Origin: Ignavibacteria bacterium
GTDB taxonomy: Bacteria > Bacteroidota > Ignavibacteria > Tepidaquicellales > Tepidaquicellaceae
DNA: 64,000 nt
Assembly: GCA_036262055.1 (NCBI GenBank)
Contig: DATAJP010000002.1
Location: 1-64,000 of the forward strand
Direction of reading: 5' to 3'
The notes beneath the pieces were generated by a model, which was not told the DNA's origin, ran no database searches, and was given only the letters and a program-made list of their open reading frames with translations. This document shows, in pieces, positions 34,712 to 60,657 of the stretch (position 1 is the first letter of the stretch; every line of letters starts with the position of its first letter). Made by a program: the position numbers and the translations under genes.

Positions 34712-34729
34712 TCACTTTCCGATGCAGAA
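34712..34729 (-). repeat. att-like site 3 (real mnmE 3' end)
   Basis: Minus strand TTCTGCATCGGAAAGTGA, the last five codons (F-C-I-G-K) and stop of mnmE. It is the integrase-proximal border of the element. The last 18 bases of mnmE/trmE are also the known attachment site of Salmonella genomic island 1. Confidence 0.85.
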
Positions 34730-36100
34730 GTGCTGGAAAATATTTTGAAGTACCTCATCATTTGTGAACTCGCCGGTGATTTCTCCGAGATGATGGAGAG
34801 CGTTGCGAAGGTCAAGCGAAATATATTCTCCCGACATATTTGAATCAATTGAGTTAATTGCATTCCCGAGGGACATAATTGTGTTTTCAAGGCATAATTT
34901 GTGACGGAGGTTTGTGATGATTAAATTATTTGAACTTACCGATAAATTATTTAAATGGAGTTTATCAATCATTTCGTTCTTCAATATATCAATCGATATA
35001 TTATCAAAAACAGAAATATATTGGAATTCCCGCTTTCGCAGGAATGACTTCGGTATAATATCACTCTTTGTAAAGACTAAAATCGATTTATCTGATTTTA
35101 AGTTTGCATTATAGAACTTCAAAGTATCTTCGATTTCATTTTCACCTGATGAAGAGTCAATCAAGAACAAAACCAAATCTGCATCTTTGATTTTTTCAAA
35201 GCTTCGCTTTATTCCCTCTGTTTCTATTACATCACCTGAAATACGCAAACCTGCCGTATCGACAAGCTTAAACAAGATTCCGTTAATTATTAAATTTTCT
35301 TCGAGGTAATCACGCGTTGTTCCGGCAATTTCGCTGACTATTGCACGGTTTGTTTTAAGCAGATGATTGAACAAAGATGATTTACCGCTGTTCGGCTTGC
35401 CTGCAATTACAAGGTTAACGCCTTCTTTAATTACTTTGCCTGTTATATAAGAATCAGCAATGTTTTTGAGTTCGGAAATTACATTTCCGATTTTTTCTTT
35501 TACTTCTTTTTTAGAAACAAATTCAACGTCTTCCTCGGCAAAATCAAGCTCAAGTTCGACAAGAGAAGTAATATTCAAAATATCCTGCCTGACTTTTTGA
35601 ACATATTCCGACAAAGAACCTTCAAGCTGTTTAAGTGAAGAATGATGCGCTAAATCTGTTTTAGAACGGATTAAATCTGCAATGGCTTCTGTCTGAGATA
35701 AATCAATTCTGCCGTTTAAGAAAGCACGTTTTGAAAACTCTCCGGGTTCGGCAGGTCTGATTCCCAATTTATTCAGCAATGATATAATTTTGTTTGCAAT
35801 GAAATACCCTCCGTGGCAGGAAATCTCTATAATATCCTCGCCGGTAAAAGAATTTGGATTTTTGAAAATTGAAATTAAAACTTCATCCAACTGCTCTTCT
35901 TCATTAAAGATAAATCCGTAATGAATTGAATGCGAATTAAATTCAGAAATATTAACGGGAATTTCTCTTTGTGAATCTTTAAAAAATATTTTCTCAACAG
36001 TCTCGAATGCTTTATAGCCCGAAACACGGATAACCGCAATTCCTCCTTCACCTGCCGGAGTCGAAATTGCACAGATAGTATCATAGACAGAAGATTTCAA
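34712..36100 (-). CDS. mnmE: tRNA modification GTPase MnmE
   Basis: With MnmG, MnmE builds the cmnm5 group on the wobble uridine of several tRNAs. Of 462 residues, 1-118 are the folate-binding N domain; a GTPase domain is inserted in a helical domain: G1 GKPNSGKSS (234-242), G3 DTAG (281-284), G4 TKSD (344-347), then the C-terminal CIGK motif whose Cys is essential for modification. Just after G4, residues ~349-361 (KSFLRKREFQ) are encoded by a palindromic repeat found elsewhere in intergenic DNA. The gene's last codons serve as an integration site; function should be retained because the element restores the same amino acids. Confidence 0.97.
   Translation of the reverse strand: MKSSVYDTICAISTPAGEGGIAVIRVSGYKAFETVEKIFFKDSQREIPVNISEFNSHSIHYGFIFNEEEQLDEVLISIFKNPNSFTGEDIIEISCHGGYFIANKIISLLNKLGIRPAEPGEFSKRAFLNGRIDLSQTEAIADLIRSKTDLAHHSSLKQLEGSLSEYVQKVRQDILNITSLVELELDFAEEDVEFVSKKEVKEKIGNVISELKNIADSYITGKVIKEGVNLVIAGKPNSGKSSLFNHLLKTNRAIVSEIAGTTRDYLEENLIINGILFKLVDTAGLRISGDVIETEGIKRSFEKIKDADLVLFLIDSSSGENEIEDTLKFYNANLKSDKSILVFTKSDIIPKSFLRKREFQYISVFDNISIDILKNEMIDKLHLNNLSVSSNNLIITNLRHKLCLENTIMSLGNAINSIDSNMSGEYISLDLRNALHHLGEITGEFTNDEVLQNIFQHFCIGK
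35023..35050. repeat. REP-like palindrome inside mnmE coding sequence
   Basis: Begins GGAATTCCCGCTTTCGCAGG and ends AATGACTT. It matches the intergenic repeats at 45336 and 58796 with few changes. Stem ATTCCCGC / GCAGGAAT has one mismatch. It is translated in frame as part of MnmE. Confidence 0.75.
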
Positions 36101-45335: not shown

Positions 45336-45360
45336 GGATTCCCGCTTACACGGGAATGAC
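45336..45360. repeat. REP-like palindrome
   Basis: GGATTCCCGCTTACACGGGA followed by ATGAC; stem ATTCCCG (45338-45344) / CGGGAAT (45351-45357). Same family as 58796-58821 and the copy inside mnmE. Confidence 0.75.
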
Positions 45361-58795: not shown

Positions 58796-58821
58796 GGGAT
58801 TCCCGCTTACGCGGGAATGAC
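58796..58821. repeat. REP-like palindrome
   Basis: GGGATTCCCGCTTACGCGGG then AATGAC. Perfect 8-bp stem ATTCCCGC (58799-58806) / GCGGGAAT (58811-58818). Same family as 45336 and the copy in mnmE. Confidence 0.8.
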
Positions 58822-58863: not shown

Positions 58864-60657
58864 TTATTTAATCAACATCATCTTCTTCGTTTCGACATAC
58901 GATGCGGTTTCGAGTTTATAATAGTAAGCTCCGCTTGAAAGATTTCCTGCGTTAAATTTCACTTCATAGCTTCCTGCCGATAAATTTTCATTTAATAAAG
59001 CTGCAACTAATTTTCCTGTTAAGTCATATACATTTAATTTCACCTTTGACATCTGACCTTTGACATCTGAAGGGATTGTAAATTCAATAGTCGTTGCCGG
59101 ATTAAACGGGTTTGGATAATTTTGTTCCAATCTGAAATCCGAAGGATTATTATAATTAAATTCTTTTTCAATATTTACAATGCCGCCGTTTTCAGTAATA
59201 GTATATGATTTATTGATAGCTACATTCGTAAATACGCTTCTGTTTCCTGAGGACCATTCAACAACTATTGAATCAATAGTTGTTGCAACCCACAATCCGA
59301 AGCTTTGCCATAATGTCTGAGCACAATAACCATTTTGCCCCTCGATGACTCTCATTTGCCAGGTTGGTTTCCCCCACGTGTTTGCTTTAACTCTTATTTT
59401 TGTCCCGATGGCTGCTTTATTTGATGTAGTTCCGATACACCTTATCTGAACCCTTGCATTCGAGTTGCCGTTGTTCATATAACAATAATTATTCTGATTC
59501 TCACCAAAAGTATTTGCAACAAACAAATCAACGAAACCATCACCGTTTAAATCACCCCAACTGAAACCATATGAATAACCGCTGTCGCTTACCGATGCAT
59601 CTCCTGTAACTCTTTGAAATTCAAATTTACCCGTTTCATTTAATAAATTTTTATAAAGACGATTTGTAAGTTTTACTCCCACAGGACCATATGCCTGCGT
59701 AACAAAAATATCGATGTCGCCGTCATTATCAAAATCACTCCACGCACTGCACGCGTTATAACCGGGGTCATTTACTAATGTATCACCTGTCATTTTTGTA
59801 AAAGTAAAATTTCCGTCGTTTCGATATAAAGAATTTACGCCACCCCAGTTTGTTGTAAATAAATCCTCATCACCGTCATTGTCATAGTCACCCCAGCTGC
59901 CGCTCCAATAATTTCCTGCTTCGGCAGTTATGACCGTATTGGTAACTTTTGTAAAGTATCCTGCCCCATTATTCTTGTATAAATAATTAAACTGATTTTC
60001 TTCATTAGCAACAAATAAATCCTGGTCACCGTCATTGTCGATGTCAACCCAATTCACTCCACGTGATGCTCCGGTTTCACTCACAACAATTCCTGTATCA
60101 ATACGGACATAATTTCCTGCACCTGCGTTTTTATATAAAAAATTTTTGTGATTCGCGCCTGCGCTGTTTGAAACAAAAATATCAACCAAGCCATCGTTAT
60201 CATAATCACCCCATGAACAAGTTTCGGAATAACCTCCGGTTACTGAAACAGGATTTGTATTCAAAAATGTAAATGTCCCGTTGCCGTTGTTCGTGTATAA
60301 ATTATTACCTGCTCCGCTCCAGTTTACAAAACACATATCAAGGTCACCGTCATTATCGATGTCAGCCCAGCTGCTTCCGTCCGACCTTCTTCCATCCTGA
60401 ACAATTACAATATCAGTTACTTTTGTGAACGTTCCGTTACCGTTATTTTTATATAAAAAATTGTTTTGTCCGCCTATAAGACCATTGGTAACATAAATAT
60501 CCAGGTCACCGTCATTGTCATAATCAATCATATTCACCGAGCGCGATGCGCCCCCGTCATTTACAAACTGCCCCGTTGTAACTTTTGTGAAATATTGTGA
60601 GTATGATATGTTAACTGATACAAATACTGCTAAAATGCTAAGTATTATTTTTTTCAT
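58864..60657 (-). CDS. Secreted FG-GAP/VCBS + ASPIC/UnbV protein with T9SS sorting domain
   Basis: 597 residues. Signal peptide ~1-20. Seven or more FG-GAP-type repeats with the metal-binding DxDxDGDxD pattern (DYDNDGDLDIY, DIDNDGDLDMC and so on) fill ~40-400, giving a beta-propeller. An ASPIC/UnbV domain follows (~410-490: AAIGTKIRVKA; VEWSSGNRSVF). The C-terminal T9SS domain begins LEQNYPNPFNPATTIEF. In its first loop, SDVKGQMSKV comes from a 14-bp tandem repeat. Likely a calcium-dependent surface binding protein. Confidence 0.92.
   Translation of the reverse strand: MKKIILSILAVFVSVNISYSQYFTKVTTGQFVNDGGASRSVNMIDYDNDGDLDIYVTNGLIGGQNNFLYKNNGNGTFTKVTDIVIVQDGRRSDGSSWADIDNDGDLDMCFVNWSGAGNNLYTNNGNGTFTFLNTNPVSVTGGYSETCSWGDYDNDGLVDIFVSNSAGANHKNFLYKNAGAGNYVRIDTGIVVSETGASRGVNWVDIDNDGDQDLFVANEENQFNYLYKNNGAGYFTKVTNTVITAEAGNYWSGSWGDYDNDGDEDLFTTNWGGVNSLYRNDGNFTFTKMTGDTLVNDPGYNACSAWSDFDNDGDIDIFVTQAYGPVGVKLTNRLYKNLLNETGKFEFQRVTGDASVSDSGYSYGFSWGDLNGDGFVDLFVANTFGENQNNYCYMNNGNSNARVQIRCIGTTSNKAAIGTKIRVKANTWGKPTWQMRVIEGQNGYCAQTLWQSFGLWVATTIDSIVVEWSSGNRSVFTNVAINKSYTITENGGIVNIEKEFNYNNPSDFRLEQNYPNPFNPATTIEFTIPSDVKGQMSKVKLNVYDLTGKLVAALLNENLSAGSYEVKFNAGNLSSGAYYYKLETASYVETKKMMLIK

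Follow-up and report, generated by a model that had tools for sequence, protein, structure and literature searches.

Introduction

The closest described systems are the CGTC REPs, and the features given here are those set out in the main text of Di Nocera 2013 (PMC3733652). The CGTC-1 class, which includes dRS3 of Neisseria and RPE-6 of Rickettsia, has an 8-bp stem with A-T as the first two pairs, a 4-base loop, a CCA-type tail and an unpaired head, CGTC, for which TGTC and CCTC variants are described. The copies are many and mostly intergenic, mainly between unidirectional or convergent genes, and they form dimers among which the head-to-head arrangement predominates. In that account no transposase lies beside the copies and some copies are intragenic; a REP is reported in dnaE of R. 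conorii, and RPE-4 and RPE-6 of Rickettsia (Ogata 2002, as cited there) are described as CGTC-family palindromes read in frame in proteins (PMC3733652). The hosts of CGTC REPs include Chlorobi and Bacteroidetes, and Ignavibacteria are unnamed in the main text of that report. Translated CGTC REPs are thus already published, and the case described here, a REP read in frame within mnmE of an Ignavibacteria bacterium, is a further example. It lies in a 64,000-nucleotide stretch of DNA, referred to below as the window.

Results

MnmE is conserved, yet essential in some strains only. The mnmE gene of the window (34712-36100, minus strand) has a TTG start and encodes an intact tRNA-modification GTPase of 462 aa, a product for which both NCBIfam MnmE equivalog models exceed their cut-offs. 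Four MnmE matches were obtained genome-wide, of which that of mnmE (1.2e-297) is the only strong one; two of the remaining three are listed, at 9e-14 and 1e-11, both in one 458-aa frame. Among the matches found, which possibly lack near-self records, the nearest named MnmE is that of Ignavibacteria bacterium UBA6667 with 65% identity. The protein carries KPNSGKS at 235, DTAG at 281 and TKSD at 344-347, which we take to be the G1, G3 and G4 motifs, and a C-terminal CIGK at 459. MnmG, the partner of MnmE, is encoded in the same genome, which is 2.87 Mb in size and represented by an assembly of 4 contigs from one strain. It was observed across window positions 35003-35071 that MnmE proteins of Tepidaquicellaceae mostly have S/TKxD, presumably G4, where more distant relatives have NKxD, and that SAK of the distant proteins, presumably G5, is absent from those of the family.

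The 23-bp core of the repeat is located at 35026-35048 on the minus strand, where the sequence reads GTC-ATTCCTGC-GAAA-GCGGGAAT and forms an 8-bp stem with one G-U pair around the loop GAAA. The core has no mismatch to the degenerate family pattern and the flanks GAA and CCAATA match as well, giving an extended element of 35 bp (35017-35051, minus strand) composed of GAA, GTC, stem, loop, stem and tail, which departs at 5 positions from a 35-bp consensus built on 152 copies. The tail is TCCA; the head, AGTC, is outside the described head variants. The predicted RNA fold has an energy of -11.4 kcal/mol and a z score of -2.6, with 5 of 200 shuffles equal or better. These results locate the palindrome where the initial annotation had placed it, and the peptide KSFLRKREFQ that it had assigned to the repeat was quoted correctly. 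The repeat encodes K351-Y361 (KSFLRKREFQY; 35018-35050, minus strand), beginning at the 4th residue after TKSD, as expected from the earlier description of a site just past G4. The frame continues unbroken through the repeat, with coding-like codon use on either side in a codon-preference test, in agreement with the proposed spread of repeat DNA into coding sequence. When the variable loop bases are left aside, the encoded peptide differs from that of the consensus by P354L and S359F, changes which could be a signature of selection or plain C-to-T decay.

The repeat belongs to a large family in this genome, with at least 166 places at two or fewer mismatches (91 + 75), whereas the reversed pattern has no match there; no match was obtained in 100 shuffles of the window. 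The two intergenic relatives previously noted at 45336 and 58796 were recovered outside genes on the minus strand at 45338-45360 (one mismatch) and 58799-58821 (no mismatch). A column profile built on 117 distinct copies from the first set of stretches revealed an invariant GTC head, 8 stem pairs of which the first two are A-T, a 4-base loop that is mostly GNAR, and a CCC or CCA tail (C 0.93, C 0.87, C or A 0.97). The base 5' of GTC in the profiled copies is A in 65%, T in 33%, G in 2% and C in 0%.

Further counts refer to a sample of 112 pieces of the genome, including the window, that holds 161 distinct copies, 152 of them at two or fewer mismatches, with at least 14 further copies outside the sample. 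The 152 copies lie between unidirectional (101), convergent (29) or divergent (13) genes, in a called gene (7) or with a gene on one side only (2); gaps of at least 40 bp in the same stretches, a background that is not independent of the copies, number 189, 37 and 44 for the first three classes, so the shift of the copies from the background is modest. Neighbouring copies within 300 bp form 12 pairs, 6 in the same orientation and 6 tail-to-tail, with none of the 12 head-to-head when the GTC end is taken as the head. Of the six reading frames through the element, five are each open in 126-143 of the 152 copies, whereas the sixth is open in 4. Four Y1_Tnp matches were found, at distances of 1.5, 4.3, 10.6 and 25.7 kb from the nearest examined copy with two or fewer mismatches; one of these matches has a three-mismatch copy at 448 bp. 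A dedicated REP transposase was not found in the genome, no Y1_Tnp match being closer than 1.5 kb to an examined copy at two or fewer mismatches, and a RAYT as the mover of the REP is unsupported given these distances.

Copies inside genes are rare. The codon-preference test, applied on both sides of each copy, placed 6 of the 161 copies inside coding frames, while 2963 of 3868 random positions in the same genome passed. The six comprise the copies in mnmE and dnaE, two in frames that are 53 and 64 codons long (L169 and L115) and were set aside as non-genes, and two three-mismatch matches in long open frames (window position 59912, and L173) that were set aside as chance. Inspection of called genes placed 7 of the 152 copies inside genes, namely those in mnmE and dnaE together with five close to the end of a gene: four are at most 37 codons from the called start and one is at most 14 codons from the stop. 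Of the 152 copies examined, those in mnmE and dnaE are the only ones in long genes left by the codon test, and intragenic REPs are exceptional. One of the five copies near gene ends, L006:1501-1523 (C2:357560), ends an N-terminus resembling a signal peptide and encodes IPAFAG, which resembles a signal peptidase site; translation of this copy may be genuine.

In MnmE the G4 and G5 motifs are separated by a loop of 14 residues (I348-Y361), 11 of which are encoded by the REP. Loop lengths were compared within a set of 29 family genomes in which the source genome is the only one from its genus. MnmE was scored in 23 of the 28 relatives, the matches in G005, G020, G024, G026 and G028 being fragmentary, and L039, a near-duplicate of L011, was excluded from the loop counts. 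The loop is 9-32 aa long in the 23 family relatives, with a median of 12; for the two nearest of these the values are 19 and 20. In 23 more distant MnmE proteins the loop has 11-26 residues; 3gee, a solved MnmE, is 8 residues longer across the aligned stretch. The repeat peptide is absent from all 46 relatives scored, both the 23 of the family and the 23 more distant. The refuting case named in the initial annotation, relatives with identical residues from unrelated codons, was thus looked for and did not occur. The REP forms most of the MnmE loop and the loop length stays ordinary. The earlier proposal that the repeat alters the loop by adding residues is therefore retained in part: most of the loop is encoded by the repeat, but there is no lengthening relative to other MnmE proteins, and a net gain of residues was rejected on the loop lengths of relatives. 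Removal of the REP would leave a loop of 3 residues, below every relative scored. In a structure model the mean pLDDT is 64 at residues 351-360, compared with 85 and 88 in the adjoining blocks. Other repeat-like sequences were observed in the same loop of relatives, a CAATCAT-type heptamer repeat in L027 (G015) and a GKTNE-type peptide repeat in L032, the mnmE of G012.

The second copy in a long gene, identified by the codon test, lies in frame in dnaE (L180:1582-1604, C3:1113081), encoding the alpha subunit of DNA polymerase III. The segment with the REP has 58 residues, compared with 36-44 in 23 of 24 relatives and 56 in one, the two closest having 44 and 42; one further relative without coverage was dropped from the comparison. 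As read from these aligned segments, the REP lengthens the predicted protein by about 14-16 residues relative to the two closest relatives. An in-frame insert of another kind, with octamer-like tandem DNA, was observed in mnmG (L303:1501-3522, minus strand), where the corresponding segment has 89 residues versus 48-66 in 24 family relatives. A search for similar octamer arrays found no three-unit run in 467,559 sampled bases, the mnmG insert itself lying outside the sample, and such arrays are therefore not called genome-wide.

With a second pattern and at most one mismatch, REP copies were detected in 34 of 59 genomes searched, including genomes of a second family of the order Tepidaquicellales. 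Ten or more copies are present in six of the 28 other genomes of the family, with the highest numbers in G013 (49) and G004 (32). Among 120 copies examined in six other genomes 5 are intragenic, all in G004 (5 of 30); none is intragenic in G013 (of 50), G029 (of 15), G032 (of 11), G033 (of 9) or G030 (of 5). The codon test was passed by 1818 of 2859 random positions in related genomes.

The 5 intragenic copies of G004 all fall in the same loop of the T9SS type A sorting domain. TIGR04183 scored above the cut-off in each of the four proteins that were scanned of the five bearing a REP. The copies visible in this domain, in both orientations, are those of L225, L227, L230, L231, L240 and L224, the last being a sixth visible case; L224 and L231 contain unread bases. 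Four of the five share a common orientation and flanking codons, which makes copying of the sorting domain likely, and L240, in the opposite orientation, reads as an independent insertion. A narrow DNA pattern for the repeat in this domain matched 3 places in 391 genomes, all in G004, and since the pattern is narrow and missed other known G004 cases, its silence outside G004 means little. A different repeat-like peptide, PPFEGGQGG, was observed in the same sorting-domain loop of L241, also in G004.

Discussion

The REP in mnmE most likely represents repeat DNA that is tolerated where the protein has a variable loop at its surface. It is probable that a CGTC-1-like REP entered the loop in frame and was tolerated there, either in replacement of the old loop or by insertion followed by loss, without acquiring a special role. 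The element would have reached mnmE by whatever process spreads CGTC REPs and would have landed in frame between G4 and G5, with the result that K351-Y361 are now coded by the repeat; the old loop would have been replaced directly, or the REP added and the old residues subsequently lost. A repeat-built loop no longer than those of relatives is best fitted by one of these two routes, as judged from MnmE proteins of the family and of more distant relatives, none of them congeneric. The protein would still function because the loop appears to accept very different sequences and lengths, a tolerance supported by the spread in length among relatives, by the other repeats in L027 and L032 and by the low pLDDT of the segment. 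Persistence of the REP would then follow from a tolerant loop and from an element that is mostly free of stops in five of six frames.

A simple additive insertion, in which about 11 residues were added to a very short ancestral MnmE loop, is unlikely. The dnaE copy of the same genome behaves in this way and is a counterpoint to the absence of lengthening in mnmE, but the ancestral MnmE loop would have had the 3 residues that remain without the REP, when the shortest of the 23 family loops has 9 and the closest relatives have 19 and 20. Still less probable is retention of the repeat for a function, whether that of a hairpin in the mnmE mRNA or that of a domesticated loop modulating the GTPase or its contact with MnmG. 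Maintenance of the stem through the G-U pair and the change of both P354 and S359 to hydrophobic residues are consistent with such a role; however, one copy that departs from the consensus at five positions is no test of selection, and the loop sequence is unconserved in the family. The probability that the mnmE repeat is a chance resemblance or an assembly error is negligible: although the assembly has 4 contigs and represents a single strain, the shuffled windows yielded no match, the flanks outside the palindrome fit the REP family, and the frame is intact with coding-like codon use on both sides of the repeat.

Entry into a tolerant loop, the preferred reading for mnmE, could be one instance of a broader pattern in which Ignavibacteria reuse REP DNA as coding material for surface loops, although we propose this only tentatively and regard it as rather doubtful. 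The pattern would embrace the MnmE loop without lengthening, a longer hairpin in DnaE, and the T9SS loop of G004, which the REP would have entered at least twice independently, in both orientations, before the domain with its repeat spread among secreted proteins.

The results add Ignavibacteria and MnmE to the known range of translated CGTC REPs, unless the supplement of Di Nocera 2013 already includes MnmE. A limited literature search found no title or abstract opening that reports a REP in either MnmE or the T9SS sorting domain; the gene list in Additional file 3 of PMC3733652 lies outside that search. The mnmE case suggests that a translated repeat can leave the length of a protein unchanged, and the different outcomes for length in mnmE and dnaE bear on whether REPs spread by insertion or by replacement of short stretches. 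The sorting-domain cases of G004 provide a naturally occurring set of events at a single site.

Judged on sequence and on the published description of the class (PMC3733652), the family of this genome is CGTC-1-like. Shared with CGTC-1 as described there are the 8-bp stem starting with A-T, the 4-base loop, the unpaired GTC and the CCA-type tail, as well as the mostly intergenic position of copies, mainly between unidirectional and convergent neighbours and with no transposase found beside them, and the occurrence of some intragenic copies. Unlike in that description, the base before GTC is A, T or G and never C, and the copies are mostly single with few dimers, none of them head-to-head. The family differs from GTAG REPs with a RAYT in its GTC head and in that no Y1_Tnp match has an examined copy at two or fewer mismatches nearer than 1.5 kb. 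In contrast to RPE-4 and RPE-6, few copies are clearly translated, 2 among the 152 examined, and the copy in mnmE brings no net gain in length relative to other MnmE proteins, but like the RPE elements the family has in-frame copies in intact genes, mnmE and dnaE, with a dnaE case described in Rickettsia as well (PMC3733652).
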